DNA of 64,000 bases from Teichococcus aerophilus. Its GTDB lineage: Bacteria > Pseudomonadota > Alphaproteobacteria > Acetobacterales > Acetobacteraceae. Shown in pieces: positions 13,755 to 39,164 of the stretch. A program made the position numbers and the translations under genes. Positions within the stretch are counted from its first letter, which is position 1, and each line of letters begins with the position of its first letter. Location of the stretch: assembly GCF_014490485.1 (NCBI RefSeq), contig NZ_JACTVA010000010.1:62001-126000 (forward strand), in the 5' to 3' direction. The notes beneath the pieces were generated by a model, which was not told the origin of the DNA, did no database searches, and saw only the letters and a list, made by a program, of their open reading frames with translations.

Positions 13755-14507
13755 TCAGGCGGCCAGACCGCCATCCACCAGCAGCTCGGCGCCGTTGACA
13801 TAGGCGGCGGCGGGCGAGCAGAGGAACACGGCGGCGGCGGCGACATCCTCCGCCCGGCCCAGGCGGCCGGCGGGGATGCGGGCCTCCACCGCCTGCCGGT
13901 AGGCGGGGTCCGCCAAGGCGGCGGCGTTGCCTTCGGTGGCGATGGCGCCGGGGCAGAGGATGTTGACGGTCAGACCCTGCCCGCCCAGTTGGCGCGCCAG
14001 GTTGCGGCCCAGATTGCCGATGGCGGCCTTGCTGGCGGCATAGGCCAGCTGGTGCGGGTTGGGGCGCCATTGCTGCACGCTGCCCAGCAGCAGTACCCTG
14101 CCCTGCCCGCCCTGCCGCAACCCCGGCAGCGCCGCGCGCACCAGCAACAGGCTGGCGCGTACATTCACCGCCCAGTGCAGGTCGGCCCCCAGCGGATCGA
14201 TCGCTTCCAGTGCCACGCGCTGTTCGAAGGCGGCGTTGCAGACCAGCAGGTCCGGCGCGCCGCCGAGTGCCGTGGCGACAGCCTGCACCAAGCGGGCCGG
14301 GGCGAGCGGGTCCGCCAGATCAGCCGGCAATGCAGCGCGGGCGCCGATAGCGGCGGCGGTGGCCTGCGCTTCGTCCGCGTCATGCGCCCCTTCATGCGAG
14401 ATGGCGACGCCGGCGCCGGCTGCCGCCAGGGCGGCGGCAATGGCCTTGCCGAGGCCACGGCGGCCGCCGGTGACCAGGGCGCGGCGGCCGGTCAGGTCGA
14501 GATGCAT
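13755..14507 (-). CDS. Short-chain dehydrogenase/reductase (SDR), NAD(P)-dependent
   Basis: 250 residues, the classical SDR length. The nucleotide-binding motif TGGRRGLG is at residues 14-21, the NAA motif is at LVCNAAFE, the Ser is in LLLGSVQQW and the catalytic YxxxK is YAASK. The C-terminal AELLVDGGLAA is typical of the FabG-like subgroup. The substrate is unknown; the fold also occurs in sugar, ketone and acyl reductases. It starts at the ATG at 14507, reads away from the binding-protein gene upstream, and is not tightly linked to a pathway. Confidence 0.88.
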   Translation of the reverse strand: MHLDLTGRRALVTGGRRGLGKAIAAALAAAGAGVAISHEGAHDADEAQATAAAIGARAALPADLADPLAPARLVQAVATALGGAPDLLVCNAAFEQRVALEAIDPLGADLHWAVNVRASLLLVRAALPGLRQGGQGRVLLLGSVQQWRPNPHQLAYAASKAAIGNLGRNLARQLGGQGLTVNILCPGAIATEGNAAALADPAYRQAVEARIPAGRLGRAEDVAAAAVFLCSPAAAYVNGAELLVDGGLAA

Positions 14508-25127: not shown

Positions 25128-25145
25128 ATGGCGTCCCCTAGGGGA
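25128..25145. repeat. Left attachment site
   Basis: ATGGCGTCCCCTAGGGGA is an exact copy of the tRNA-Glu 3' segment at 39147-39164. The flanking bases differ immediately on both sides, which fits an 18-bp crossover core duplicated by integration. Confidence 0.85.
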
Positions 25146-25207
25146 AACGACGACGCCGCAGAAAATTCACGCTAAAACAAGCGGATACGGACCCGGCTTG
25201 GGCGAAT

Positions 25208-25219
25208 AATGGATCACCC
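25208..25219 (+). promoter_or_regulatory. Candidate integrase arm-type site, left
   Basis: AATGGATCACCC lies 63 bp inside the left core. The same 12-mer is found inside the right core at 39061-39072, with a further ATGGATCACC at 39076-39085 (62 bp inside). Near-equal distances suggest integrase or excisionase arm sites. Confidence 0.45.
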
Positions 25220-25615
25220 TGCCGGACCACCGCAAGAGGCTTCCCGCGAATTGCTGGGGTCCCATTGACGGGCCGGAACCTTGCTCAAGACGTTTGCGAA
25301 CGCCTTCCGGGGATCAGACCCTAGCAGCAGCGCCGCGGCGTGCGGGTGCGTGAACTGAAGGACCTTCGCCGTGAACAGCCGCGGTTCGACCTCCAGGGCA
25401 TCCGCGAAGGCAAGCATCCGATCTGGCGGTAGAGAGTTCCGGCCGGTCTCAATCGCGCTGATCCCCGAGCAGCCATCCATTCCGACGAGTTCGGCTAGCT
25501 GACGCTGGGTTAGCCCTACTTTGGCCCGGAGACCCTGTAGCCACCGCCCGAGCTCAACCCGGTACTCCGCGCCAGCCGGGCCGCGGTGACTGAGTGGGTT
25601 CGAGAAGGCGGGCAT
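25214..25615 (-). CDS. XRE-family helix-turn-helix regulator
   Basis: 133 residues from the ATG at 25615. The HTH domain is at about residues 18-80: ELGRWLQGLRAKVGLTQRQLAELVGMDGCSGISAIETGRNSLPPDRMLAFADALEV. The canonical LTQxxLAExxG and IExGR elements are present. The C-terminal 50 residues carry no known domain. It is the outermost gene at the left end of the element and is likely the repressor or maintenance regulator of it. A GGATCACCC arm-type motif overlaps its 3' end. Confidence 0.85.
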   Translation of the reverse strand: MPAFSNPLSHRGPAGAEYRVELGRWLQGLRAKVGLTQRQLAELVGMDGCSGISAIETGRNSLPPDRMLAFADALEVEPRLFTAKVLQFTHPHAAALLLGSDPRKAFANVLSKVPARQWDPSNSREASCGGPAG

Positions 25616-26120
25616 AACGGGCGGTCTCCGGGATAGGTCACGATTCTAGGGCTTGGAGCCGCCTGACGCCACCGCCCGGCCGGCCCCGGGGTGGCGGGTA
25701 GAGGCAACGTGAAAAAGAACCGGTCTCTGAAGGAACGACCGCTGGATTTGACCCCGTGGGGGTTCGAACGGCGACGACCAACCGACAATAACAACAACAA
25801 CCCTTTAGCGGCTTTTTTGAAACGGCTGCTTGGAAACAGGGGGTGGGGGTCGTTCCGGAAGCCGAGTGCCGGTCGAGCGCCCGACTACAGACCCCCGGGC
25901 AGCCGGACCGTTCCTCGCGACCGCCCTTCCCGACAGAGCCCGCGCCCGCCATCCGCCCCGCCCTGCCCTGCCCTGCCCTGCCGCCGAATCAATAGGGCTT
26001 GCCCATACGATAGAGCCGGAACGCTGGCATTAAGCGCAAGAAAGCCGATCATTAGGGTTGCGTTCTGCCTTTTGATGCGATTATATCATTACATCTTTGA
26101 CCCTAAAGATTGGATCGGCC
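25616..26120. other. Gene-free interval in the element
   Basis: No supported gene in 505 bp. It contains an A/C-rich simple stretch around 25785-25800 and four tandem CCCTG units at about 25962-25981. An AT-rich segment (about 26040-26100) just upstream of the recombinase gene is probably its promoter region. Confidence 0.5.
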
Positions 26121-26720
26121 GTGCTCGTTGGATACGCCAGAACTTCCACCGTCGACCAGGACGCCGGCCTTGCCGCCCAGGTTCGGGACCTCGAAGCGGC
26201 GGGCTGTGAGAAGGTCTTCGCCGAAAAGGTGTCGTCGGTCGCCACCCAGCGCCCCCAGCTTGCCAGCGCATTGGACTTCCTAAGAGAGGGCGACACGCTG
26301 GTTATCGCCAAGCCCGACCGGCTGGCGCGCTCGACGACTGACCTACTGGCCATCGTAGCGAAGCTGGAGGCAAAGGGCGTGGCGCTTCTGGTCCAGTCGA
26401 TGGGCGGCGAGCCTATGAGTACCCGAGGCCCGACCGGCAAGCTCATGCTGACCATGCTCGCGGCGTTCGCCGAGTTCGAACGCGCATTGATGCTGGAGCG
26501 GCAAAAGGAAGGCATCGCAAAGGCCAAGGCAGAGGGGGTTTACAAGGGCCGTGCCCCGACTGCCCGCGCGAAGGCCGCCGAGGTCCTCGCCATGCAAGCC
26601 CAGGGTGTGCCCGTGGTCGAGATCGCTAAGCGTCTTGAGATTGGCGTGGCAAGCGCCTTCCGTATCCTGCGGGACGCAAAGGCCGCGGCTGCGGCGGAGA
26701 CCCCTGCATCGCTGGGCTAG
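26121..26720 (+). CDS. Serine recombinase (resolvase/invertase family)
   Basis: 199 residues. The start is taken as the GTG at 26121 (LVGYARTST, the standard N-terminus); a TTG at 26097 would add eight residues. The resolvase domain covers about residues 1-140: catalytic Ser9 in YARTSTVDQD, KPDRLARSTTDL with the active-site Arg pair, and GPTGKLMLTMLAAFAEFERALMLERQKEGI. The C-terminal Hin-type HTH is VPVVEIAKRLEIGVASAFRILRDA. It acts on DNA by site-specific strand exchange; targets could be element dimers or an invertible segment, but no inverted target pair was found. Confidence 0.9.
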   Translation: MLVGYARTSTVDQDAGLAAQVRDLEAAGCEKVFAEKVSSVATQRPQLASALDFLREGDTLVIAKPDRLARSTTDLLAIVAKLEAKGVALLVQSMGGEPMSTRGPTGKLMLTMLAAFAEFERALMLERQKEGIAKAKAEGVYKGRAPTARAKAAEVLAMQAQGVPVVEIAKRLEIGVASAFRILRDAKAAAAAETPASLG

Positions 26721-26833
26721 TTGGGTACTTCGCCCAGAAACCCTTCAAGGTTCGCGGGGAAGCACGTTGCCTTCGCCCTGCCCACTCGCAGACTTCACCC
26801 TGGCCGTGACTGTCGGCCTTCCAAAGGAAGCTC

Positions 26834-27142
26834 ATGATGCGCGACACGCAGCTTGGCTGGTTTGACACGACCCTGGGCATCAACGCTGCCGATCTATCAG
26901 AGGGCCATTCGTTTGTCGGCCGGAACGCCGGATGGCTCGCGGAGCCCATTCTGGCGGAAGACGGCCAGTGGCTCGCGCTGTCCCCGCCGCATCGTGACGA
27001 CGTGGTCTTCAGCGTAACCCGTTCGGGGGCATGGCTGCATGCCGTGAACCTCGATAGCCAGGCCGAGGTGGGCGTCTTCGCGACGATGGCGGAAGCGCTC
27101 CAAGGGTGCCTGTTGGACGCTGGCCGGGATGTCGTGGCGTAG
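26834..27142 (+). CDS. Hypothetical protein of the element
   Basis: 102 residues; the ATG at 26834 (or 26837) follows AAGGAAG. The chain is acidic with beta-like periodicity (FVGRNAGWLAEPILAEDGQWLALSPPHRDDVVFSVTRSGAWLHAVNLDSQAEVGVF). Its size and general pattern resemble the gene at 27404, but similarity is too weak to call them paralogues. No family is recognised. Confidence 0.6.
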   Translation: MMRDTQLGWFDTTLGINAADLSEGHSFVGRNAGWLAEPILAEDGQWLALSPPHRDDVVFSVTRSGAWLHAVNLDSQAEVGVFATMAEALQGCLLDAGRDVVA

Positions 27143-27230
27143 AGGATGAGCAGGAACCCTCAACGGGTGCCACCATGATTGCTCCAAGCCTTGTAAAGGC
27201 TGGTATCGAATTGGGACCGATTCGGCCTTG

Positions 27231-27398
27231 ATGAAGGACACCATCGGGGAACTTCTCTCTCTTTTAGTTGAACGGACTCTTGCGGCCGACTCGTTGCCTG
27301 CTAGAATCAGTCCGGGCGCTCGAACCGCCTCTCCAGAAGACTTAGAGACCAGCTTAGATATCAACCTGAGGTCTGTTAGCCCTCCTGGAGCAGATTGA
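27231..27398 (+). CDS. Possible small acidic protein
   Basis: 55 residues from the ATG at 27231 (MKDTIGELLSLLVERTLAAD, then SLPARISPGARTASPEDLETSLD). The stop falls 5 bp before the ATG of the next gene, an operon-like spacing. There is an amphipathic N-terminal helix and an acidic tail. No good ribosome-binding site is seen, so it is a tentative call. Confidence 0.4.
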   Translation: MKDTIGELLSLLVERTLAADSLPARISPGARTASPEDLETSLDINLRSVSPPGAD

Positions 27399-27403
27399 CG
27401 TCC

Positions 27404-27742
27404 ATGGATAATTCCCACTTCCGTCTCGCAGACCTCTCCGCGACGGACCGCGCAGCCATCTCCGCATGGTGCAGGAAGACCCCGGGCGGGTGGCGTGCCG
27501 AGCAGGTCCCAAGTGACGGCGCGGCCTTCATGCTTGTTTCTAACAACCAGACCCGCAAGGCCCTCCGCGAGGTTCACCGCCAGTTGCGGGACCCCCACGC
27601 TACCACGGCTTGGCACGTCATCAGGCACGCGGACGGCTTCGTGGTCGTGGACGACGGTCGCTGCGGGCAGTCCATTGCCCAGGCGCCCACGCTGACGGAC
27701 GCTCTTGCAGCTTTGGCAGTCGCCCAGCCGCTCCACTCATGA
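27404..27742 (+). CDS. Hypothetical protein of the element
   Basis: 112 residues from the ATG at 27404 with GGAG upstream; a TTG nine bases earlier is in frame. It is a mixed alpha/beta soluble protein (AISAWCRKTPGGWRAEQVPSDGAAFMLVSNNQTRKALREVHRQLRD, HVIRHADGFVVVDDGRCGQSIAQAPTLTDALAALAVA). No family is recognised. A hairpin with a GCAA loop (about 27741-27764) follows the stop. Confidence 0.6.
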   Translation: MDNSHFRLADLSATDRAAISAWCRKTPGGWRAEQVPSDGAAFMLVSNNQTRKALREVHRQLRDPHATTAWHVIRHADGFVVVDDGRCGQSIAQAPTLTDALAALAVAQPLHS

Positions 27743-28367
27743 GGGAGGGCCGCAAGGCCCCCTCGCCTCGACATTCCCCCAGACGGCCGCCTCGCCTGCG
27801 CGCGGTACTTGATGAGGCTCGGCGGCGGCCTTTGCGGCTCGGACACGCCTGATCCCGATGCAGAAACCAGCGACCAACCAGGACTATGTCTTAACCCGCA
27901 ACGGTGTCCAGGGTGTGGCAGATAAGGCACAGTATCGGCCATCCGGCGCATTCTTTGCTGTGGATAGCTGACACACTTCACGACACAGTCTCGGGCGGTA
28001 GCCCGCACTGCGCGCTGAACGTCAAACCCGTTCAATGGCTTAGTCGGCGGCCGTCTGAACAGTCTTTGATCATGTCGTCGTGGGGTCGACGTGCTTGCGC
28101 ACTGTTTCTGGTTCCTATTGATGACGTCTCCAGCTTCTCACGGAGACGACTCAGTGACGCAGACCCGTAGCGCTTCAAGAGCTTCACGCCGACATCATCG
28201 TCGCAGAGCCGCGGGTTATCTCGCTGTGCCGTCGAACGGCCTGGATAAGCGACACCCCCTATGTGCTCGTAGGCGGCTTGCCTGTCCCTACGCAGGCATG
28301 AAACCCGACCTGCTCGGGCTCACAAGACCCTGACCCAAGCAACGTGACGCCGAACCTCCGTTCTAAG
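27743..28367. other. Gene-free interval upstream of the PolA-like gene
   Basis: No convincing coding frame in 625 bp. It begins with GAGGGAGGGCC-GCAA-GGCCCCCTC, a bulged hairpin that may end the upstream transcript. The rest has no recognisable repeats. A non-coding region before a replication-type gene could hold a promoter or replication origin; no iterons were seen. Confidence 0.5.
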
Positions 28368-28441
28368 CCCCGAGACCCGGCTCAAGGATCATCATGTCTG
28401 GTCTCGGGGTCTGTCCTGACAGGAGAGGAATTACTCCTCTC
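28368..28441 (+). promoter_or_regulatory. Leader with three consecutive hairpins before the PolA-like gene
   Basis: CCCCGAGACC/GGTCTCGGGG (28368-28377 with 28400-28409, a perfect 10-bp stem) encloses AAGGA and an in-frame ATG at 28394. It is followed by CTGTC-CT-GACAG (28411-28422) and by GAGAGGA-ATTAC-TCCTCTC (28423-28441). This looks like a structured 5' leader or attenuator. It would hide the first ATG, which favours the downstream GTG at 28466 as the real start. Confidence 0.5.
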
Positions 28442-28465
28442 TTCATCATCAGAAGGTCGGTCGCT

Positions 28466-29941
28466 GTGAACGTCCAGATGACACAACCCGCTGCCTATCC
28501 AACTGTCTGTCTTCAAGATGGTCTAAGTGAACGTCTTAATGATCAACGGGGGGAACAACCCCGAGGGGGGTATCCAGAAACAGTTAATGGCCTCCTCTAT
28601 GAGGTCCCGCCGACCGTTCCCGCCGCCGACCTTCTGACGGACGCGAAGGAGCTCCCGTTGCACATCGTGCCGGCCTCTCCCGCTGCAATCGGAATGGTCG
28701 CTGCGGTCGTCGACAGAGTCGCGGCACGTTGTGCGGAAGGTCGCCGCCGGAAGCGCACAGAGACCGAAGCGGTCGGGCTGGCGACCGCCGCCTCTGCGAT
28801 CATCTGCGGCGTCCTCTGGCTGTGGTCTCGCGGCACCCCACGGATGGGGTTTCGGGTCTGCTCTGCGGCTGCCTTCACGGGCCACCCGGTGTCGGCCCGC
28901 AGCTTCCGGGCTGCGCGCGACGCACTGCACGGCCTGGGCCTTATCGCGTATGTGGAGGGCGTGCGTTTTCGCTCTGAGTGGGCTGTCGGGGACGAGTGGC
29001 ATGGACACGCCGGCCGGTTCGCTCCGGCCCTGGCACTGCTCATGACTGCCCGAGAATGGGGTCTGTCCCCCGCCGACCTGCGCCGTGACTTCAAGCGGGC
29101 GTGCCCGACAACCCCTCCTCTGCCAGCCCCGCCAGTGGTCCTGCGCGACTTCAAACGCTGGCCGAAGAGTGCCGGAGATCGTCTGCTACCAATTGACCCT
29201 GCTGACCCGCTGATGCTCGCGGCTGTCGCGGAGGTGGAAGCGCACAATGCCTTCGCTGCTCGGGTCCCCATCTCAGGCTGCCTTCCCCCACGCTGGCGCC
29301 GCACCTTTCGAGGCGACTTTCGCTTGGGTGGCCGATGGCACCCCCTGGGCGGCGTGGAACACCTGTCCTCGTACCTGCAACTCTCCGAGGCCGAGCGGGT
29401 CGGAGACATCAGGATAGGTGGCGAGAAGGTTGTGGAGGTGGACATATCTTCCGCGCACCTCACCATCTTGCACGGGCTGTTTGGCCTCCAGCGACCGCAG
29501 GGCGACCTCTACGCCGCGGTCCCCGGCGTCCCTCGCACGGTCGCCAAGGCGTGGACAACCGCCGCCCTCGGGTCTGGCTACGCCCGGACAACTTGGCCGA
29601 GAATCGCCGAACCTCGCCTCCTTCAGTACGACCCGCAGATGATCCGGGATGCCATGGTGGCGGCCTACCCCTTCCTGCTGGATCTAGCTGTGGCTGTCCC
29701 GGCCGAACTCCGCGCGGCCCACAGCAACGAACGGACGCTGACAGCCCTCTATCTGCAAGCCGTAGAGGCTGGGGCACTGACAGCCGCAATGCGCAGGCTA
29801 CGTGAAGGCGGCCGGCTGGCGTTGCCGACCCATGACGGGATGATCGTCCCTGCCTCGGTTGAAGCCACAGCCTGTTCGGCGCTTCGTGCAGCCATCGAGG
29901 CGGCAGCCGGCGTGATCCCGGTCCTGGACGTCACGCGGTAG
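28466..29941 (+). CDS. PolA-like DNA polymerase with N-terminal winged-helix region, divergent
   Basis: 491 residues from the GTG at 28466 (AGAAGG nine bases upstream); an in-frame ATG at 28394 lies inside a hairpin. The N-terminal half has a winged-helix-like segment (VSARSFRAARDALHGLGLIAYVEGVRF), as in replication initiators. The C-terminal half carries family-A polymerase motifs. Motif A is VEVDISSAHLTIL (Asp326). Motif B is RTVAKAWTTAALGSGY, with Arg357 and Lys361 at the R-x3-K spacing of Klenow 754/758. Motif C is LPTHDGMIVP (His456, Asp457). The usual Glu after HD is Gly. No nuclease domains are present. Likely the element's replication polymerase or primase-polymerase. The motif reading is mine and has not been checked by a profile search. 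Confidence 0.6.
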   Translation: MNVQMTQPAAYPTVCLQDGLSERLNDQRGEQPRGGYPETVNGLLYEVPPTVPAADLLTDAKELPLHIVPASPAAIGMVAAVVDRVAARCAEGRRRKRTETEAVGLATAASAIICGVLWLWSRGTPRMGFRVCSAAAFTGHPVSARSFRAARDALHGLGLIAYVEGVRFRSEWAVGDEWHGHAGRFAPALALLMTAREWGLSPADLRRDFKRACPTTPPLPAPPVVLRDFKRWPKSAGDRLLPIDPADPLMLAAVAEVEAHNAFAARVPISGCLPPRWRRTFRGDFRLGGRWHPLGGVEHLSSYLQLSEAERVGDIRIGGEKVVEVDISSAHLTILHGLFGLQRPQGDLYAAVPGVPRTVAKAWTTAALGSGYARTTWPRIAEPRLLQYDPQMIRDAMVAAYPFLLDLAVAVPAELRAAHSNERTLTALYLQAVEAGALTAAMRRLREGGRLALPTHDGMIVPASVEATACSALRAAIEAAAGVIPVLDVTR

Positions 29942-29982
29942 CGGCGGGGGGGGATGGCTTTAGGTGCTGCCAGTAGCGATGA

Positions 29983-30252
29983 TCTACCGACATCAGGAGG
30001 CACGATGCGAAGCTGAAGCTTGCCGACGAAGTGGGGGCGTCTCCCCGTGAACTCGTCTGGCACTATCTGGCGGCAGCGGAGGCGCAGGCCATGACGTTGG
30101 CTCTGCGGGAGCTACGTGGGGCCGGCATTTTGGGTCTGCCCGTCCATGACAGCTTGATTGTTCCTGAAGCAGCGGAGGGTCTCGCGCGCCGCGCTATCGC
30201 AGAGGGGTTCCGGCAGGTCTGCGGGGTCGTGCCTACCGTGGATCGGAAGTAG
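29983..30252 (+). pseudogene. Truncated C-terminal tail of a second PolA-like gene
   Basis: The frame open from 29983 to 30252 encodes ADEVGASPRELVWHYLAAAEA, then a helical stretch and GLPVHDSLIVPEAAEGLARRA. This aligns with the last about 90 residues of the intact gene just upstream (its LPTHDGMIVP motif C). Motif C here is HDS. A good AGGAGG plus ATG (29995-30007) reads into a different frame and stops after three codons, so the fragment is not expressed from it. It is a remnant of a related gene, by duplication or by recombination with another element. Confidence 0.6.
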
Positions 30253-30605
30253 CCACCAGCAGCAAGCGTTTTCGGATGGACGGCTGCGCTGCACCGCCTT
30301 GGTGCCCCACTACCGGCCGCTCTTGCCGCCGCCTAGCGAGGCTCCACATGCGGGCACCGCAGCACCGACGATCTACGGGATGGATATGAGGAAACGACCT
30401 AGCGCCGCCACATGACGGGGGTGCCCGCCGTTCCACGCCACCGCGCTAGCACCCCGAGCCGCTAGCTGCGGAGAAACGACCTAGAGCAGCTATATGAGGA
30501 GAGCGCGCGACCGCCCTCCCGTCATCCATCTCTCATCCCTACGAAACAGCCAGACAACCCCGCAGCCACGCTCGCGGGGTTTTGGCATTGGAGCTCTTAG
30601 AAGCC
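30253..30605. other. Gene-free interval with short direct repeat
   Basis: No gene is seen. GAAACGACCTAG occurs at 30391-30402 and 30473-30484, each near an ATATGAGG, forming a loose direct repeat about 82 bp apart. A terminator hairpin is at 30556-30583. Confidence 0.5.
30556..30583 (+). terminator. Rho-independent terminator-like hairpin
   Basis: AACCCCGC pairs with GCGGGGTT (8 bp) around a 10-base loop and continues TTTT. It would end transcription from the polymerase region before the HNH-like gene. Confidence 0.7.
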
Positions 30606-31133
30606 ATGCATCACCTCAGCGGAGAGGCCACTGCGCTCGCGCCTTCGTTCGCAAAAGAACGTCTCAGGAAGCCAGCCCGCTACCCCCGCCGCCCGCGGCT
30701 AATTGACCCTGGGGTATTCCCTGTCAGGGTCGATGGCCAACGGGCACTCGTCATAGACCTATCGGGCGGCTGGGGCGCAGGTAAGCGGTTCATCATCGAT
30801 CCGGAAGACTGGCGCTGGGTCAAAGAAAACCACGGCGCTACGTGGGTGCTTAACAGCAATGGAAACGGGGCGCGCCACGCATACGTCAGTAGCGCAGCGA
30901 GGACCGCGGCGAGGTCCGCCGGGCAACTGGGCGGCTCTCCAAAGGCATTACTCGCGCGTGTGATCATCGGCGACGGCAAGCCGATGCCCCCAAAGACCGC
31001 GGTGGCCTATCGGAACGGGAACCGCCTGGATCTTCGCCGCGCCAACCTCGAAGTCATCCCCCGTAGCGCGTGCAGCACCTACCGTCCGAAGTGCCCGCCG
31101 CCCGTCATCGTCGAAGGCTGGTTGGACTCCTAA
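30606..31133 (+). CDS. HNH/homing-endonuclease-like protein (degenerate)
   Basis: 175 residues from the ATG at 30606; a TTG at 30582 is in frame. The C-terminal pattern LARVIIGDGKPMPPKTAVAYRNGNRLDLRRANLEVIPRS resembles the HNH homing-endonuclease core, in which a VDHxNGxxLDxRxxNL motif is usual. Here the expected His is replaced (VAYRNGN), so nuclease activity is doubtful. The middle region KRFIIDPEDWRWVKENHGATWVLNSNGNGARHAYV resembles the DNA-binding part of such phage proteins. It is common cargo of phage genomes. Confidence 0.55.
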   Translation: MHHLSGEATALAPSFAKERLRKPARYPRRPRLIDPGVFPVRVDGQRALVIDLSGGWGAGKRFIIDPEDWRWVKENHGATWVLNSNGNGARHAYVSSAARTAARSAGQLGGSPKALLARVIIGDGKPMPPKTAVAYRNGNRLDLRRANLEVIPRSACSTYRPKCPPPVIVEGWLDS

Positions 31134-31165
31134 GCGCCCTCCCTCACCCTCAACCCGAACATCTC

Positions 31166-31208
31166 CACGAAGGCGCCGCCGGTATCCACTCCGAGCGGCG
31201 CCTTCGTG
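31166..31208. terminator. Perfect 14-bp inverted repeat
   Basis: CACGAAGGCGCCGC and GCGGCGCCTTCGTG form a perfect 14-bp stem with a 15-base loop, between the HNH-like gene and the virion-protein genes. It has no T-tract; it could be a terminator for the upstream gene or a processing or protein-binding site. Confidence 0.5.
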
Positions 31209-31222
31209 ATTCTGGAGCTAGA

Positions 31223-33241
31223 ATGTCAGGAACATTCGACAACTACTCGATACGCGACCTGGAGGATATCGCCCGATACGGCAACCTCTATCGCGCCCAG
31301 CCGGGTTTGCGTGGTCCGGCCGGAGTACCGCAGGCATTTGCCAATGCGCCCTTCTCTGCGGACGTTGCAGGGCCGAACGGCGCGGCCTTCATTAACGACG
31401 CCGCGAGGGAGGCCCGGCTTCGCAGCTACTCCGCAGCGCCGGCCTCGCCGAGTTACCCCAGCCTGTTGGAAGACCAGCCGGAGGCGGCCCCGACAGGTGC
31501 GCCGGGGGCTGGCGCCCTCTTTGTGCCGCAGCCGCCAACCCCTCCCGTGGGTGCGCTGTCCCAGGCGGCCGTCAGTAGCAATCCCGCCGCACTTCCGCCG
31601 GTCCAGCGGGGCGCAGCCGTCCAGCCAATAACCCCACCCCCTACGGCCGAACCACCAGCATCCGACCGGCTCCTAGCATCCCTCCGAGCGCGCCAAGCCG
31701 CGGGATTGCCCCCGGTGACTACCCCCGACCCTGTGCAGTCCCGCGTCGCATCCATTGAGAGCGGCACTGCGGGTTCGGCCGCCCGGAACCCGAACAGCTC
31801 GGCATCCGGCGCCCTCCAGATCACGGATGGGCTCTGGGCGGACTATGCCCCCCGCCTGGGTCTTCAGCCCAGCCAGCGCAATGACAACGATGCCCAGGGT
31901 CGCGTCTTCCAAGCCTTCCGCAGCGACGTCACCCCGGAACTCCGCGGCGTCCTCGGGCGAGACCCGGAGCCGGCGGAACTGTATGGGGCTTGGCTGCTGG
32001 GTCGTGCTGGCGCCAAGGCGCTCTACTCGGCCAATCAGGGCGAAGACGCCCAGGCGCTATACGCGCGGGTTGCTGGAGAGGGCACGGCAGCCGCAGCGTT
32101 CCGGAACAACGGGAACATCATGCGGCCCGGCATGACGGTCGGCGACCTTCAGCAGAGCATCTCGTCCTACTACAACCGCCGACCCGGGGAGAATCCAGCG
32201 CCCCCGGGAGATACTGCGCAGTTACCCGCCGTGCGGCCGGCGTTGGCATCAGCGCCTTCCTTTCCCCAAGCGGCGCCGGTCAGCAACGCTGCGGAACAGC
32301 TCCAGGTCCCAGAGCAGCCCGCCTTCGCGCCGGACCGGTCGGCGCCTTGGATGGCGCTTGGCGCCGGTCTGTTGGGTGGGTCTGGCTTGGCGGACGGGTT
32401 CGCCCGGGGCCTTGCGGGCTTCCAGGAAGCAAGCCAGCAGGGTCGTCGCCAGGAATTGGTGTCACAGAACGCGGCCTCTGACCGAGCTTTCCGGCTGGCA
32501 ACCGCACGCGCCACCCTGGCAGCTTCTGAGAATGATCGCGCCGCGCGGCGCGAACAGTTCCAGCAGACCCGAGAGGATAACCAGCAGGCGCGCGCTGATA
32601 CGCTGACAGACCGGCGTGAGGGGCGCGCCGAGACCCTCGCCGCGCGCGCGGATGCACTGCGGATTGCCGCCTCGGCTCGGGGAGAAGCCGCGCAGGTCGC
32701 CGCTGCGTCCCGAGCCGAGGCGGGTCAGCAGCGCCAACTTGGGGAAGTCACCAAGACGGAGCTCCCGCTGATCGAGACCCTTGCAAGCTCACGTGAGACG
32801 GTCCAGCGCGGCCGGGTTATCCTCAACCAGCTCGATAACGGCGAACTGTCCCTCGGGCCTGTCGACAACGCTTGGTCCGGCGCTCGAAACTGGGCGGGCT
32901 GGTCAAGCCAGACCAGCCAGAACTATGCGGAGCTCCAGAGGTACGTCTCGACGACGGTCAACGCCATCCTGAACCAGGCCAAGGGTCCGCAGACCGACCA
33001 GGACGCCATCCGTGCCCGCGAGAACATCTTGGCGAACCTCAACGACCCCGCGGTTGTCCGCCAAGGCTTGGAGGAGCTAATTCGTATCCAGAGCCAAATC
33101 CACGCCGACACGGAGAGCCGTATCCAAGGACGGCGGAGGGCGCTTAGCCTGCCCGAAGCAGACTTAAGCAACTACGGGCTGCCCCAGATCCGCAACGCCG
33201 CACCGGCCGACGGCATCTTGAACATCCGGCGTATCAACTAA
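31223..33241 (+). CDS. Podovirus-type internal virion protein with lytic transglycosylase motif
   Basis: 672 residues from the ATG at 31223 behind GGAG. The N-terminal third is Pro/Ala-rich. Around residues 175-215 a transglycosylase-like core is seen: RVASIESGTAGSAARNPNSSASGALQIT, with Glu179 as the presumed catalytic acid, then GLWADYAPRLG. From about residue 400 it becomes strongly helical, charged and coiled-coil-like (RREQFQQTREDNQQARADTLTDRREGRAETLAARADALR). Such fusions occur among phage ejection proteins (T7 gp16-type) that open peptidoglycan during DNA entry. It is the first of three linked virion-like genes. Confidence 0.65.
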   Translation: MSGTFDNYSIRDLEDIARYGNLYRAQPGLRGPAGVPQAFANAPFSADVAGPNGAAFINDAAREARLRSYSAAPASPSYPSLLEDQPEAAPTGAPGAGALFVPQPPTPPVGALSQAAVSSNPAALPPVQRGAAVQPITPPPTAEPPASDRLLASLRARQAAGLPPVTTPDPVQSRVASIESGTAGSAARNPNSSASGALQITDGLWADYAPRLGLQPSQRNDNDAQGRVFQAFRSDVTPELRGVLGRDPEPAELYGAWLLGRAGAKALYSANQGEDAQALYARVAGEGTAAAAFRNNGNIMRPGMTVGDLQQSISSYYNRRPGENPAPPGDTAQLPAVRPALASAPSFPQAAPVSNAAEQLQVPEQPAFAPDRSAPWMALGAGLLGGSGLADGFARGLAGFQEASQQGRRQELVSQNAASDRAFRLATARATLAASENDRAARREQFQQTREDNQQARADTLTDRREGRAETLAARADALRIAASARGEAAQVAAASRAEAGQQRQLGEVTKTELPLIETLASSRETVQRGRVILNQLDNGELSLGPVDNAWSGARNWAGWSSQTSQNYAELQRYVSTTVNAILNQAKGPQTDQDAIRARENILANLNDPAVVRQGLEELIRIQSQIHADTESRIQGRRRALSLPEADLSNYGLPQIRNAAPADGILNIRRIN

Positions 33242-33470
33242 CGACATCGGGTCCGTGCGGCTCTCTACCGCCCGCACAGCGTGCAGCCGTTTTCCCGCCA
33301 GCCGCTTCTGGCCGGTCTTCGGCTGTGTCCTACCTGACTTCCCCCAAGCCGCCCCAGCGGGCACGGCGGGAGGGCGGCGTTGCGCCCGTCCCGATGCGCT
33401 ACAGCAAGTAGACCAGCAGGCACCGGACGACCGTGCTGCTGGGTGCCCATCCCCAAGAAAGCGACCCCTC

Positions 33471-33944
33471 GTGGATACTTCTCCCGTGATCATCCCAGGC
33501 GACATCGCCTTGGCCGATGACCTCGCGCCGAGGCTGCGTGCCGCCGATGCTGACGAACTCCGAGCCAACGGCCGGGAGCCTCTGCCGGGTCTGCGCCGCG
33601 CGGCTGCGGTGTCGGCCCTGTTGTCCGCAATCGCAGAGCCATGCGGACGACCCATAGCCCTCTTTGGGTTCGCCGACCTCGGCAACGGCGCGGCGTGTCC
33701 TTGGCTGCTCGGGTCTGACGACCTCGTGGACCGGCACCGGGGGTGGTTCATCCGGAACTCGCAGACCATCGTGAGATCTGGGGACCACCGCTGGGGCCGC
33801 TTCTGGAACCGCGTGGATGCGCGGAACATCCTTCACATCCGGTGGCTTCGCTGGGTCGGCTTTAAGGTCGGACCCGCAGCACCGCACGGGCCTTACGGCC
33901 TTCCCTTTCATTCAATCTCTAGGAATAATCTATGTGTGACGTAG
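33471..33944 (+). CDS. Phage Gp13-like (DUF2833) internal virion protein
   Basis: 157 residues from the GTG at 33471 (a GTG at 33486 is the alternative); upstream sequence in the same frame looks non-coding. The pattern LRAADADELRANGREPLPGLRRA, then GRPIALFGFADLGNGAACPWLLG, then WFIRNSQTIV and RNILHIRWLRWVGFKVG with PYGLPFHSI is the GNAT-like Gp13/DUF2833 family of podoviruses, where it is an internal virion or assembly factor. It overlaps the next gene by 13 bp. Confidence 0.7.
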   Translation: MDTSPVIIPGDIALADDLAPRLRAADADELRANGREPLPGLRRAAAVSALLSAIAEPCGRPIALFGFADLGNGAACPWLLGSDDLVDRHRGWFIRNSQTIVRSGDHRWGRFWNRVDARNILHIRWLRWVGFKVGPAAPHGPYGLPFHSISRNNLCVT

Positions 33945-35365
33945 CCACAGGAGCCGTCGTTGTTGGCGGCGCTATAGCCGGCGCAGCGGCTGGCAGCGGC
34001 TCAAAGAAGTCTTCGGCGACTTCTACGTCCTCGCCGTGGGGACCCCAGGCCACCCACCTGGACAACGCGTTCAACGGCGCCTCGGCGCAGTACGACGCCC
34101 AGCTCGGCCGACCGGCCTGGGAAGCGACAAACCCCACCGCCGCCGGCTTCAACGCCACACAGCAGGAAGGCGCCGCCCTGGCAGCCGACTACGGCCGAGG
34201 AGCCGGCGGGGCTCTGTCGACCGGGGTAGCCAACCAAGCAGGCGCTCTGATGGGCGCCGGCACGAACTACCTTCAGAACGCAGGCGCACTCGCCCAGAAC
34301 GGCGCAGGGCAGGCTAACGGCATGGCGTCCGGCGTCCTGTCGCAGGCGGCTACCGGTCAGCCCATGGGGTCTTCCGGCGTGGCCGGGTCTTCGGGTCTGG
34401 CGGGCCAGCAGGGCGCCCTGTCCACCGCCACGGCGCTCGCCGCGCAGGGCCAGACGAACCTCAACCCGTCGATCCAGCAGGCGGCAGCGGGTTACGTCAA
34501 CTCGGACCTTGTGAACGGCCAGGTGGACGCCGCCACCCGCGACGTTGCGAGGACCCTTGGGGAGGAGACCCTGCCCGGCCTCAATGCCCGCGCGATGGCC
34601 GGCGGGAACATCAACTCGGCCCGGGCGGGTGCTGCCGAGGCGGTGGCGCGTCGAGGGGCGGAGGACCGGGCGGCCGACATCTCGTCGGGCATTCGGAACA
34701 ACGCCTATAATACTGGGGTCAACGCCGCCCTGACGGCGAACGCCCAGCAGAACAACTTGGCGCTGACGGCCAACGCCCAGTCGGCCGCCGCGGCTGGCGC
34801 CCTGTCGAACCTTGGCGAGAACCAGCGGCAGTTCGACACGTCCACCCGGGTCGGGGCCGCCCAGTCCCTCGGCGCGCTGGACACCTCGAACCGTTCGCTG
34901 GACAGCCAGACCCGGCTTGCGGCGAACAGCCAGCTTGGCGACGCGACGTCGCTGGGCTTCCAGGGGGCACAGTTGGCGGGCGCGCTGACGGACGCCAACG
35001 CCGGCCGGATCGGAGCACAGGGCGACCTCCAGCAGGCGGAAGCCCAACGGCTGATCGATCAGAACCGGACGCAGTACTACGCCCAGGAACAGAGCAACCA
35101 GGCGGCCCTCCAGAACTACTATGGGATCGTCGGCGCGGGGAACTGGGGGAACAGCACCACCCAGACAACCGCAACGCCAGGACCCGGAGTTCTGGGCGGG
35201 GCACTAGGCGGCGCTGCTGGTGCCTACGGGCTCTACAACTCGTTCGGCGCGAGTGCCGCGGGCGGTGCTGGCGGGTCGACGTCCGGCGGGGCACTGAGCC
35301 TGGGCAAGCTGTTCTCAGGGACGGCGGACGGAGGCAGCAAGGGCGCGCTCTACCGCGGCGCCTGA
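33932..35365 (+). CDS. Podovirus-type internal virion protein B-like (Ala/Gly/Gln-rich)
   Basis: 477 residues from the ATG at 33932 with AGGAAT upstream. It opens with MCDVATGAVVVGGAIAGAAAG, a short hydrophobic Gly-rich segment typical of gp14-like ejection proteins. A long Ala/Asn/Gln-rich, largely helical body follows (AALTANAQQNNLALTANAQSAAAAGALSNLGENQRQFD), ending in a Gly-rich tail. Size and position after the Gp13-like gene match the gp13-gp14 order of podoviruses. Low complexity limits certainty. It is followed by a strong terminator. Confidence 0.6.
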   Translation: MCDVATGAVVVGGAIAGAAAGSGSKKSSATSTSSPWGPQATHLDNAFNGASAQYDAQLGRPAWEATNPTAAGFNATQQEGAALAADYGRGAGGALSTGVANQAGALMGAGTNYLQNAGALAQNGAGQANGMASGVLSQAATGQPMGSSGVAGSSGLAGQQGALSTATALAAQGQTNLNPSIQQAAAGYVNSDLVNGQVDAATRDVARTLGEETLPGLNARAMAGGNINSARAGAAEAVARRGAEDRAADISSGIRNNAYNTGVNAALTANAQQNNLALTANAQSAAAAGALSNLGENQRQFDTSTRVGAAQSLGALDTSNRSLDSQTRLAANSQLGDATSLGFQGAQLAGALTDANAGRIGAQGDLQQAEAQRLIDQNRTQYYAQEQSNQAALQNYYGIVGAGNWGNSTTQTTATPGPGVLGGALGGAAGAYGLYNSFGASAAGGAGGSTSGGALSLGKLFSGTADGGSKGALYRGA

Positions 35366-35383
35366 CGGCTTGAGGTGAGACTT

Positions 35384-35428
35384 GGCGCAGGTCCTCCGGC
35401 TTCGGCTGGAAGGTCTGCGCCTTTTTTT
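35384..35428 (+). terminator. Rho-independent terminator after the virion-protein genes
   Basis: GGCGCAG (35384-35390) pairs with CTGCGCC (35415-35421), with a further internal TCC/GGA pairing, followed by seven T. It isolates the reverse transcriptase region from the upstream operon. Confidence 0.85.
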
Positions 35429-35429
35429 A

Positions 35430-35876
35430 CATCCCTTCATTCTTTTTCTGGACAAGCTGAGCTCAAGCCGCTATCGAAAGGATGCCCTATCGGTTCAGTT
35501 CTGAACGCGGCAGGGGTTTGTTGTTGCAGATGTCAATCGACAATCTGATGGCTACTGGCGCGAACTTTCTGAGTTTCGTGACCAGATGGTTAAGCAGGGT
35601 GAACGACATCATAGTAATCAAGTCCTCCGGACTGAGATTATAGCAATACCAGTATGGTAAAGGGCCGCTCGGAGTACTTGTACTACGCGCGAGTGATAAC
35701 CAAGCAGGCGGCGTTCCGACGCAGCCTGACGGTTGAGGTGACGGAAAGACCAAAAGGCGACGATTGGTCCGATCTGTTGTCTGGCAGCAGAGATGCTGTC
35801 AGGGTGCCGAGGGGCTTTCCTCGTTAGAGGCGGATCCGCCCATAGATCCGGCCCCCGGCCTTGCCACTCAACAGAC
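35430..35876 (+). ncRNA. Candidate structured non-coding RNA of the reverse-transcriptase system
   Basis: 447 bp of AT-richer DNA between a terminator and the RT gene, with no plus-strand frame longer than about 60 codons. It is dense in hairpins: GTTCAG-TT-CTGAAC (35493-35506), AGTCC-TCC-GGACT (35621-35633), AGTAC-TT-GTACT (35673-35684) nested in CTCG/CGAG, CTGGCAGCA-GAGA-TGCTGTCAG (35781-35802), GAGG/CCTC (35809-35822) and the palindrome GGCGGATCCGCC (35829-35840). Some defence RTs (DRT2, DRT9) need an upstream ncRNA as template or partner. The RNA itself, its ends and its promoter are inferred. Confidence 0.5.
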
Positions 35877-37205
35877 ATGGTTCGAATGCTGTATCCCAAG
35901 AAGCCGCGCATTAAGAAGAAGCGTTCGGGCTGGTTCACCCCTCGACGATATCCGCACTTCGATATGCCGATCATGCGCCTGGAGACTGCCAAGGAGTTGG
36001 TAGAAGACCCAGAGAAAGTGGCGCGTCATGGGTTCCTTCCTCTCATAGCATTCGAGAAACGCCAAAGGCGGTTTGTTTCAAGTAAGGGTGGGAGACCGAC
36101 TGGCAAAGTTAAGGTTCGCAAGCTTGCTTATTGCTCCAATAAGGACGCTACGATCTTATCGTATTATGCCGCTATGCTTTCGGATCTCTATGAAGAAGCG
36201 CTTCAAAGTGCCGGCCTCGACGAGGTCGTCACCGCGTATCGCAAAGGTTCATCAAACATCTCGCTAGCCCTTGGGGCTTTCAACGAGATAAGAAGCCGCG
36301 GGCGCTGCACGGCCCTTGCGCTCGACATATCTGGATTCTTCGACAACATTGGCCACGACGTCTTGAAGCGTCATTGGGCTACGATTCTAGGCGTCACGAA
36401 ACTGCCTGCTGACCACTTTCAAGTCTTCAAAGCAATAACCCGCTTCAGCACGGTCGATCGTGCCTCGTGCCTTGAGCGGCTAGGCATGCATCCATTCACC
36501 CCTCAACGCAACTTGCGGGTCCCGCTGTGCTCTGCACGACAATATCGAGAACTGATCCGAGGCAGCCCGTCCGGCGCACCAAACCTTGTAACCCCGCATT
36601 CTGGTGAAAAGGGGATTCCTCAAGGTACCCCTATCTCAGCCGTAGCCGCCAATATCAGTATGCTGGCGTTCGACAAGGCGGTCTCTGCGGAGGCAGTACG
36701 GCTTGGCGCCGTTTACCGGCGTTACTCCGACGATATCCTGGTGGTCTGCTCACCCAAGGACGCAGGCCACTTTGAAGATTTTATCCTCGGATCTCTAGAT
36801 TCGCTCGCCAATCCTTTGAAGATCAAGGCCGCGAAATCGCAGCGAGTTGAGTTTAGGGGGCCAGGCGTCGCGGCAATGCCGCACGCGCTTGATTATTTGG
36901 GGTTCACCTTCGACGGCCGAAAGATACTGCTCCGCGGCACAACGCTTGCCCGATTCTGGCGGAGAATGGCTACTTCGGTGCATTGGGCAAAGCGTATGCA
37001 GACACTGGCGGAAAAGGGCAAAGTTACCGGGAGGCCCGTACTGCACCGTCGCGAATTGCACACGCGATTGACCCACCTTGGAGCCGACAGCTTTCATAGG
37101 GGTTACGCCAGGAGGGCGGCCACGATGATGGGCGCGCCGTCTATAGGTCGCCAACTGCGCCGCCACATGCATGTCCTTCAGAATCTTATCGACAAGCCGA
37201 GATGA
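35877..37205 (+). CDS. Reverse transcriptase of the defence-associated (DRT/UG) type, Drt2-like
   Basis: 442 residues from the ATG at 35877 (a second ATG at 35886). The N-terminal block has RRYPHFDMPI and KLAYCSNKDATILSYYAAMLSDLYEEAL with VVTAYRKG, a layout I associate with single-protein antiviral RTs. RT motifs: motif A ALDISGFFDNIGH (Asp150), GIPQGTPISAVAANI, the catalytic YSDD at 283-286 and LDYLGFTF. There is no maturase, X or endonuclease domain and no integrase fusion, so it is not a standard group II intron RT. Codon use is AT-richer than its neighbours. Predicted role is anti-phage defence; the exact class (Drt2 or another UG lineage) is uncertain. Confidence 0.75.
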   Translation: MVRMLYPKKPRIKKKRSGWFTPRRYPHFDMPIMRLETAKELVEDPEKVARHGFLPLIAFEKRQRRFVSSKGGRPTGKVKVRKLAYCSNKDATILSYYAAMLSDLYEEALQSAGLDEVVTAYRKGSSNISLALGAFNEIRSRGRCTALALDISGFFDNIGHDVLKRHWATILGVTKLPADHFQVFKAITRFSTVDRASCLERLGMHPFTPQRNLRVPLCSARQYRELIRGSPSGAPNLVTPHSGEKGIPQGTPISAVAANISMLAFDKAVSAEAVRLGAVYRRYSDDILVVCSPKDAGHFEDFILGSLDSLANPLKIKAAKSQRVEFRGPGVAAMPHALDYLGFTFDGRKILLRGTTLARFWRRMATSVHWAKRMQTLAEKGKVTGRPVLHRRELHTRLTHLGADSFHRGYARRAATMMGAPSIGRQLRRHMHVLQNLIDKPR

Positions 37206-37240
37206 AGTTTAGCGCGGCCCGTAGTCCCGCGGGGTTCTGG

Positions 37241-37495
37241 TCAGCGGCGATGGGACTTCCGGTTTCCAGACTTGCGAGACGATACCCTCAATGTCGCCCA
37301 TGCCAGCAGCCCGACGAGACATGCCCAACCTGCGGCAAACAGGGTCCCGAGCGCTAGCCACTGCCACCCAGCGCCGGGGTAGTGACCGCGCAGCCATCCG
37401 AGGAAGGCGATCAAGCCGCCTGTGAATAAGGTGCCTGCCACGAAGACGCACAGCATGAGCGCGCCCGGCGATATCTCGCCACGGTCATCGCTCAT
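37241..37495 (-). CDS. Small membrane protein downstream of the integrase
   Basis: 84 residues from the ATG at 37495, overlapping the integrase stop (ATGA) and so translationally coupled to it. Two transmembrane helices are visible: PGALMLCVFVAGTLFTGGLIAFLGWL and WQWLALGTLFAAGWACLVGLLAWATL. The C-terminus is basic (RVSSRKSGNRKSHRR). No family is recognised; it reads like a phage-type small membrane protein. Confidence 0.6.
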   Translation of the reverse strand: MSDDRGEISPGALMLCVFVAGTLFTGGLIAFLGWLRGHYPGAGWQWLALGTLFAAGWACLVGLLAWATLRVSSRKSGNRKSHRR

Positions 37496-39048
37496 TCTCC
37501 CGCCTCGCTCGTCAATGGTCCGGTGTACCCGTCTACTGGGATAGGCGAAGGGATCTTGTAGACTTCCTTGATGAGCTGATCCGGCCGGCCACGCCAGCCC
37601 CGTCCATAGTTGGCGCCTGCATTTACCGGGTTGTTGTGACCCAGCATCGCATCTGCGGCTTCTTCGCGGACCCCGCTGAACCTCAACAGGTCCTTCATGC
37701 GGTGGCGCCATGAGTGTGCTGCGACCTTATTTTTATCTTTGATTCCAACCTTGCCGCGCAGCCAACGGCCCAGCTTCTTAGTTGCCATCGCACTGCGGTT
37801 ACCATTACGCCCCGGCTTCAAGTCAGGGAATAGTGGCCCGGTGTGCGGACGGGACTGCGCGTAGGCAAGGAACCCCTCGGCAAGGAGGGCGGGATGCAAA
37901 GGCACCATTCGGACGGGCTGGCCGTCCTTTAGAGTCCGCCCCTCGGCGCGGTCGTGAATGTCGAGAATCCAGACCCCGCTTTGCTGCCTAATATCCGCCG
38001 CCGCTGCTCCGCTAGCTTCCTCAAGGCGACACCCTGTGAAGGCTAGAAGCCAAGGAAGCCAACGCAGGAAGCCCGCTTCACTGCGTGCGGCAGTCAGAAT
38101 GATCTCAGCGTCCGCGTCACTGAATGGCTGCCGCTCGGTGGTGTGGCGCTTGGACCCTTGGGGGCTCATTCCTTCAAAGGGGTTGCTGGCGCCGTCTGGC
38201 AAGTGGCCGTTCCGTAAAGCCCAGCCCCAGAGTGAGCGAAGCATTGCGATATCTGCCCCGATGGTCGCCGGTTTGACCCCGCCCGCCGCACGGTCCTCCT
38301 TCAGCGCGCGAACGCCCGCCTTATCCAGGCGGCCCGCGTCATTGTAGCCAACAACCCGCTTCAGGTGTGCAAGCGCCGAGCGCCGCTTATCGAATGTCTT
38401 GGGCTTCTCTGCACGCTCGGCTTGGTGCACCTCAAGTAGTCGGTCCATCGTGAGGGACGGTTGTGCGGCTTTGAGCGACGGCGGATAGAGGGCATCCGCC
38501 GGGTCCGGCCCGAAGTCTCCCCGCGCGCGGCCAAGCCGACGCATCGCCAAGCGGTAGCGATAAGACCATAGGTGCCCGGCCATTCGGGTCGTTGTGTCGT
38601 CATCGGGAAGCAGTCCGAAGCCTAGAAGCACCTGTCGTGCCTCGGCCATGCGCCGCTCATTCGGGATGAACTCTGGTGCTTCGCCATCATCGGCATCGCC
38701 CGGCGTCAGTTCGTCCAGCACCGTATCGCGGTGGAGATCGGCCGCGGCGTAGGCGCCAGGCTGTGCATCAATATCCGGGCCCGCAGACCTATAGAGATCG
38801 CCGACCAGTGCTGCGAGGCGGTCGTCAGGCACCGACACGACTTCTCCCCGCACGACTAACCGGGCGGCATCAAGTCGGGCTTGGAGACTCGATAAGGCTG
38901 CGGGATAGCGGCGCGCGGCTTCCCGCGGGTCCTTCGTATTGAGCGAAAGGAACAGCTCGGAACGACCGATGGTCGCTCGCAACGCAGGCGGCACGACCAC
39001 TCGAACGCGGTAGACTTTAGACTTGGGATGCTTCTGCGGTCTGGGCAT
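37492..39048 (-). CDS. Tyrosine recombinase / integrase of the element
   Basis: 518 residues from the ATG at 39048 (a GTG at 39060 would add four). The N-terminal KVYRVRVVVPPALRATIGRSELFLSL is the DUF6538-type segment of alphaproteobacterial integrases. The core-binding domain follows at about 205-300. The catalytic domain has FTGCRLEEASG (Arg), AAHSWRHRMKD (HxxR), MLGHNNP (His) and ANYGRG (Tyr nucleophile). It lies next to tRNA-Glu, the integration target, and is read away from it. Repeated GGATCACC motifs upstream may be arm sites. Confidence 0.9.
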   Translation of the reverse strand: MPRPQKHPKSKVYRVRVVVPPALRATIGRSELFLSLNTKDPREAARRYPAALSSLQARLDAARLVVRGEVVSVPDDRLAALVGDLYRSAGPDIDAQPGAYAAADLHRDTVLDELTPGDADDGEAPEFIPNERRMAEARQVLLGFGLLPDDDTTTRMAGHLWSYRYRLAMRRLGRARGDFGPDPADALYPPSLKAAQPSLTMDRLLEVHQAERAEKPKTFDKRRSALAHLKRVVGYNDAGRLDKAGVRALKEDRAAGGVKPATIGADIAMLRSLWGWALRNGHLPDGASNPFEGMSPQGSKRHTTERQPFSDADAEIILTAARSEAGFLRWLPWLLAFTGCRLEEASGAAAADIRQQSGVWILDIHDRAEGRTLKDGQPVRMVPLHPALLAEGFLAYAQSRPHTGPLFPDLKPGRNGNRSAMATKKLGRWLRGKVGIKDKNKVAAHSWRHRMKDLLRFSGVREEAADAMLGHNNPVNAGANYGRGWRGRPDQLIKEVYKIPSPIPVDGYTGPLTSEAGE

Positions 39049-39060
39049 GTTGAGAGGCAC

Positions 39061-39085
39061 AATGGATCACCCCGGATGGATCACC
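39061..39085 (+). promoter_or_regulatory. Candidate integrase arm-type sites, right (two copies)
   Basis: AATGGATCACCC at 39061-39072 and ATGGATCACC at 39076-39085 are tandem copies of the motif seen at 25208-25219. The inner edge is 62 bp inside the right core. They also lie just upstream of the integrase start, so they could be autoregulatory. Confidence 0.45.
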
Positions 39086-39146
39086 GGGAGCCTGTAACCT
39101 CTTGATTATGCGATAAACCCTGCGACTTCAACGGCCTAAAAGGCCA

Positions 39147-39164
39147 ATGGCGTCCCCTAGGGGA
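39147..39164. repeat. Right attachment site within the tRNA-Glu 3' end
   Basis: ATGGCGTCCCCTAGGGGA is identical to 25128-25145. It covers the CCA end, acceptor strand and start of the T-arm of the tRNA gene, so integration keeps the tRNA intact. Confidence 0.85.

Follow-up and report, generated by a model that had tools for sequence, protein, structure and literature searches.

A prophage-borne DRT2 reverse transcriptase locus of Teichococcus aerophilus with a split antisense promoter, a predicted hidden neo gene and a predicted GT-type jump site

In the 64,000-nt stretch of the Teichococcus aerophilus genome analysed here (contig NZ_JACTVA010000010.1, positions 62,001 to 126,000; below, the window), a reverse transcriptase (RT) gene lies within an element of phage origin, directly downstream of 447 bp (35430-35876) that contain only short open reading frames (ORFs). 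The best explanation of this locus, to which we assign a probability of roughly 0.78, is a prophage-borne DRT2 anti-phage system that would make the protein Neo by way of a complementary DNA (cDNA) of 129-nt repeats. The original prediction for this locus had proposed that it may make a templated cDNA, and the sequence now predicts what that product would be, a tandem-repeat cDNA encoding Neo. The key part, an antisense split promoter together with a stop-free frame, was absent from that prediction.

The RT is a member of the DRT2 (UG2) family. Its ORF is intact and contains all of the motifs that had been noted in it earlier, namely ALDISGFFDN, YSDD, HFD and KLAYCSNKDATILSYYA. It exceeded the cut-off of the curated Drt2 model of NCBIfam (NF041746, 439.6 bits; cut-off 390), and PADLOC identified it as Drt2 (433.3 bits, 3.7e-130). 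The closest solved chains by sequence were the DRT2 structures 9lje and 9c0i (E of about 1e-75). In addition, a fold model was built with AlphaFold2 from a 14-row alignment (predicted local distance difference test, pLDDT, 84.2; predicted template modelling score, pTM, 0.81), and its top Foldseek match was again DRT2 9c0i (TM 0.84/0.87, E 2.7e-39). DRT9, which according to the literature also combines an RT with an upstream non-coding RNA (ncRNA), was rejected as an identity on its PADLOC score (49.5 bits) and its Foldseek E value (1.7e-11, the next match). The group II intron RT/maturase model TIGR04416 was rejected at 61.5 bits against a cut-off of 300, as were the retron RT models St85 (51.8 against 235 bits), TIR retron (23.3 against 600) and Ec67 (18.7 against 450). 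In Pfam, RVT_1 alone was above its cut-off, and no maturase or endonuclease domain was found in the RT by this search. These results agree with the original prediction, whose DRT-like unit is specifically DRT2 and whose RT falls far below the cut-offs of the group II intron and retron models. The host genome gave a single match to this RT, and a search of 16 genomes of the same genus gave none.

Among the closest known systems is KpnDRT2 of Klebsiella pneumoniae (PDB 9c0i), to which the window RT shows 36% identity in the Foldseek alignment. According to Wilkinson et al. (PMC12039810) and Tang et al. (PMC11100668), KpnDRT2 uses a template of 120 nt, which it copies head to tail; antisense -10 and -35 hexamers come to lie 17 bp apart only across the repeat junction, and a stop-free frame, neo, is then expressed and growth is arrested. 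In the published clade, the bases repeated at the template ends are ACA (ACA-1 and ACA-2), and the units of KpnDRT2 homologues measure 111 to 129 nt. The window resembles KpnDRT2 in its single RT with an upstream ncRNA region, in an antisense promoter that is split and regains a 17-bp spacing across the junction, in a unit that is a multiple of three and in one stop-free hydrophobic frame. It differs in having GT rather than ACA at the template ends and YSDD rather than YCDD in the RT, in its longer scaffold and in its location in a prophage.

On the antisense strand of the upstream region, both a -35 and a -10 hexamer are perfect, but on linear DNA they stand in an unusable order (Table 1). 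Head-to-tail copying of the 129-nt unit places them exactly 17 bp apart, giving a promoter match of 12/12, and a promoter scanner at its thresholds found no promoter-like site on either strand of the linear DNA from 35300 to 35900. The length of the unit is divisible by three, and one of its frames is free of stop codons over 43 codons per repeat; the predicted Neo repeat is YNLSPEDLITMMSFTLLNHLVTKLRKFAPVAIRLSIDICNWYC, with a grand average of hydropathy (GRAVY) of 0.44. Among 20,000 dinucleotide shuffles treated under the same rules, a match of 12/12 was reached in none, 11/12 in 39 and 10/12 in 827, and 5 of the 39 also had two equal bases at index 9-10 of the junction. The GT pair of the window sits where its relatives carry theirs, at junction index 9. 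The window lacks ACA at index 11, which places it outside the KpnDRT2-type (ACA) subgroup. The Neo mechanism is strongly predicted from the sequence of the window.

If the published mechanism applies, the RT would hold the upstream ncRNA and copy the 129-nt template. As each round ends, the growing cDNA would slip from the first GT to the second and restart, which would yield a tandem-repeat cDNA. After infection, this cDNA would be made double-stranded, and the -35 of each repeat would join the -10 of the following one in a consensus promoter. The stop-free hydrophobic repeat protein Neo, with 43 amino acids per repeat, would then be made, and the growth of the cell, and hence of the phage, would be stopped. 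We infer all of these biochemical steps, and defence itself, from the mechanism published for KpnDRT2. The same RT could instead jump at CAG (35527-35529 and 35650-35652), which we consider improbable. This jump would give a 123-nt unit with a three-base repeat, a multiple of three that is also stop-free, and it was the top candidate in the window when three repeated bases were required. However, its junction promoter is weaker (TTGTCG-18-TATAAT), it leaves the perfect TTGACA unused at 11 bp from the -10, and the 17-bp spacing and the GT at index 9 are also found in relatives. Because the spacing rule fails, the CAG unit was kept only as a rival of the 129-nt GT unit.

Relatives were collected from protein alignment queries (in one of which the best 80 of 502 were kept), from genome searches and from 6 of 27 plasmid records, with 4 phage records left aside. 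Direct protein scans with the RT in genome contigs and viral contigs gave no relative, and the alignment queries did find some. A total of 109 loci, including the window, matched the RT at E 1e-20, and six added loci brought the number to 115; eight were dropped as near copies or because the RT start or the upstream region was cut off, leaving 107 DRT2-like loci. In the signature scan, the spacing was fixed at 17, the best candidate was chosen by promoter and repeat with no frame rule, and a score of at least 12 was required. Under these rules, 79 of 101 units were divisible by three and 74 of the 79 were stop-free, so that the signature was present in 74 of the 107 loci, window included. At a score of at least 14 (108 loci), the unit was a multiple of three in 61/68 cases, compared with 7/15 on the opposite strand and 10/25 inside the RT gene. 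The -10 (Tyr-Asn if it is TATAAT) stands in codon phase 0 of an open frame in 73 of the 74 signature loci, as it does in the window, a count to be read with one of the three phases already closed by the TAA within TATAAT. Across the signature loci, the open frame has a median GRAVY of 0.68, compared with -0.28 for the other frames, and lies above zero in 70 of 74. A Met within 22 codons plus a ribosome-site-like motif was found in 52, and the repeat at the template ends ranges from two to six bases. These counts also bear on the idea that the effector is the cDNA itself or another templated product instead of Neo, as in other DRT types; DRT9 and others are described (PMC13213688) as acting through DNA products. 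We regard this idea as very improbable for the window, where the frame is stop-free and mostly hydrophobic, with the same phase in 73/74 loci, and where the best models and the fold are those of DRT2, not DRT9.

Two main forms of the predicted jump site were observed among the signature loci. Of the 74, 23 have ACA at junction index 11, in agreement with the published 12-nt offsets, and 27, in the window's part of the tree, have GT at index 9. With the core defined by CA at index 12 or by GT at index 9, 31 of the 74 have CA, 27 have GT and 16 have neither. Sites were also chosen by promoter only (10/12 or better), which gave 39 sites in the window's part of the tree, made up of clades A and B together with L018, L043 and L069, and 56 elsewhere; GT at index 9 was then found in 22/39 and 0/56, and ACA in 0/39 and 17/56, respectively; GT and ACA were present at none of the sites in opposite-strand and shuffled controls. 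On the RT tree, built from 104 rows by a quick IQ-TREE run without bootstrap, the 56 labelled rows require one change (Shimodaira-Hasegawa-like approximate likelihood ratio test, 94), compared with at least 13 in 200 label shuffles; this count excludes the 33 loci without a signature, the 16 that have a signature and neither core, and two labelled loci that are off the tree. The third base is unequal between the two copies in 10 of the 27 GT loci, including the window, whose T/A pair is common to L125 and L017, and two bases therefore seem enough.

The RT sequences carry the same division. Residue 121 is Tyr in 27/27 GT-type RTs, as in the window, and Phe in 30/30 of the CA type; at the x of YxDD, 26/27 of the former have Ser and 30/30 of the latter have Cys, with L166 put in the GT set by hand and L018 and two CA-side loci excluded for a broken or cut RT. 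Because the dialect changed once, RT positions that distinguish the two forms cannot be treated as independent of phylogeny, and residue 121 and YxDD are markers that track ancestry, not causes. It is likely that DRT2 has two jump dialects that split once, the published (A)CA with YCDD and the GT with YSDD of the window, here with an enlarged scaffold. Tang et al. note that Neo was harder to annotate in divergent DRT2 clades, where alternative mechanisms were possible; such clades may produce Neo in the same way, using another slip signal that could be as short as two bases. We did not find the GT form in the DRT2 literature searched (including PMC12039810, PMC11100668, PMC12596737 and PMC13213688, a set that did not extend to supplements, to most papers behind a subscription or to the journal version of Tang et al.), and it may be in print. 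The window represents a GT-type, YSDD, long-scaffold branch of DRT2 that is not described in the portion of the literature covered.

On the RT tree, the loci nearest to the window are L051, L052, L053, L057, L165 and L166, with RT identities of 38-47%. As in the window, both junction copies have GT at index 9, which was assigned by rule in five of the six and by hand in L166, and the handle and the 3' stem are similar by eye; the scaffold is shorter than in the window except in L165 and L166. The window forms one clade with these two loci (support 99; 46% RT identity in the alignment). The distance from the -35 to HFD is 424 nt in the window, 383 nt in L165 and 385 nt in L166, and 139-328 nt in the other 72 signature loci. 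In L166, a unit of 141 nt that is free of stops, has GTT at either end and has a weak promoter (TTGCGT, TACGAT) was identified by hand; a second frame is also stop-free there, and a resolvase gene and an integrase-like gene with DUF6538 are found close to this locus.

The upstream region probably encodes an ncRNA. The RNA from 35484 to 35876 folds at -159 kcal/mol, lower than all of 100 shuffles (mean -134.8, standard deviation 6.1, z -3.98), and where at least six hairpins had been noted originally, the predicted structure has 10 hairpin loops. The 5' handle hairpin is unremarkable alone, with 17/200 shuffles folding equally well. The claim of about 450 bp with no gene was borne out, the region containing short ORFs only; six of these (53-124 amino acids) were searched, and none had a Pfam match up to E 0.1. 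Against PHROG, the same six gave one weak match (35654-35827, E 0.0076, 15.3 bits), which was taken as chance. No Rfam family reached its gathering threshold in this region, and a candidate ncRNA promoter seen by eye (TGGACA at 35449, 17 bp, TATCGA) was too weak to claim. Among the relatives, inspection by eye revealed the same order of handle hairpin, template, scaffold, terminal stem ending in (T)TGC or similar, and RT start. In an alignment of ten relatives, 7 of the 9 pairs of the terminal stem showed changes on both sides. Homologues, whose lack of any conserved upstream structure would have spoken against the original prediction, agree in the upstream layout, by eye, and in the junction rules, by count; a covariance model did not recover the ncRNA in the window. 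The strong terminator described as sealing off the upstream side is present at the end of a phage gene; a simple terminator scanner listed nothing at 35384-35428, we think because the stem is interrupted.

Several results weigh against the window being a Neo-producing DRT2 system. Under the fixed rule, 33 of the 107 loci fail the signature, including 5 of 7 from Bacteroidota, a Calothrix plasmid locus (L043) and L166. Some loci fail because the rule picked a chance candidate that outscored the true one, as in L132, in which a perfect ACA unit of 117 nt appears when three repeated bases are required. The excess of units that are a multiple of three is milder without frame or repeat rules (28/39 and 36/56 for the promoter-only sites; controls 5/18, 15/43, 4/16 and 16/42). 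Among the relatives found, none exceeds 47% identity to the window RT, and therefore selection on the unit itself cannot be shown. The covariance model R1 of the 3' stem, built from ten relatives with the window left out and with MAFFT rows partly shifted, missed the window ncRNA at E up to 10, and its best match (E 0.054, at 13926) was taken as chance; any conserved RNA structure therefore rests on layout and junction rules and not on a covariance match. In addition, the scanner found no promoter for the ncRNA itself, the template ends repeat two bases only (GT) where the published repeat is three (ACA), and the scaffold exceeds that of relatives outside the window's own small clade by about 100 nt or more. 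The two-base repeat, the long scaffold and the failure of the covariance model would also be expected of a drifted ncRNA, in which the jump repeat had been reduced and the scaffold had gained insertions so that no Neo is made. Such drift appears unlikely, since both hexamers are perfect and the frame, the spacing and the RT are intact; moreover, an unequal third base is a property that the window shares with other GT loci, and the long distance from the -35 to HFD is found in L165 and L166 too.

Other features were observed among the relatives. In three Pseudomonas loci (L083, L084 and L087), the junction promoter matches at 11 to 12 of 12 positions, but the 125-nt unit is not divisible by three; an additional base at each jump would bring it to 126. 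In a Bacteroidota clade with a viral contig (L089, L090, L104, L111, L115, L129 and L140), the signature was found in 2/7, and another promoter consensus or another product is possible in this clade. The RT of L043 shows 37% identity to that of the window, and the locus had no neo signature under the rules used. In the related genomes of L018 (G445), L008 and L171, DRT2-like genes are split or contain stop codons and are apparently decayed copies.

The DRT2 unit lies in an element of about 14 kb (25128-39164) that also encodes a resolvase, an HNH-like gene (below the Pfam cut-off), internal virion and DNA ejection proteins and an integrase. The virion and ejection proteins, the integrase and the identical 18-nt direct repeats at its ends bear out the phage-derived element proposed originally; no terminase or capsid family was found among the ten element ORFs scanned. 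The natural reading would be a prophage guarding its host against other phages. Outside the element, similar dispersed repeat pairs were observed at 1737-1804/14630-14697 (76%) and 1885-1928/14970-15013 (84%).

Table 1. Positions of the DRT2 unit, its predicted RNA and hidden antisense gene, and the surrounding element in the window
Feature	Position	Strand	Remarks
att-like 18-nt repeat, left element end	25128-25145		identical to right copy
Terminator of upstream phage gene	35384-35428	+	hairpin 35384-35421 plus T7; fold z -5.2
Predicted ncRNA	35484-35867	+	ends judged by eye from relatives; layout common to relatives
5' handle hairpin (CCCT...AGGG)	35485-35515	+	fold z -1.43; similar handle before template in relatives by eye
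Open antisense frame containing neo proto-gene	35487-35753	-	88-aa ORF
Predicted template	35523-35651	+	129 nt = 43 codons; cDNA repeat is its reverse complement
Predicted jump dinucleotide GT, first copy	35523-35524	+	template start; index 9 of 17-nt junction
-35 hexamer TTGACA of predicted neo promoter	35536-35531	-	
Possible neo start codons, ATG ATG	35607-35612	-	
Possible neo ribosome-binding site, GGAGG	35624-35628	-	upstream of ATG ATG
-10 hexamer TATAAT of predicted neo promoter	35642-35637	-	
Predicted jump dinucleotide GT, second copy	35652-35653	+	directly outside template
Scaffold hairpin, GAGA loop	35783-35800	+	fold z -2.07
3' terminal stem with two inner hairpins	35803-35865	+	TTGC at 35861-35864; fold z -2.25; comparable stems in the corresponding position in relatives
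DRT2 reverse transcriptase	35877-37205	+	442 aa; YSDD = residues 283-286
Element integrase	37492-39060	-	PHROG integrase 1.5e-27; DUF6538 above cut-off, Phage_integrase below
att-like 18-nt repeat, right element end	39147-39164		at tRNA-Glu 3' end

If real, the hidden neo of the window would be a further case of a prophage gene that does not exist in linear form. The GT form would make it testable how an RT locates its jump point with as few as two base pairs, and the dialects would give a one-letter marker in the RT, YSDD or YCDD. A second junction rule that holds across a clade would make hidden neo genes predictable in divergent DRT2 clades.
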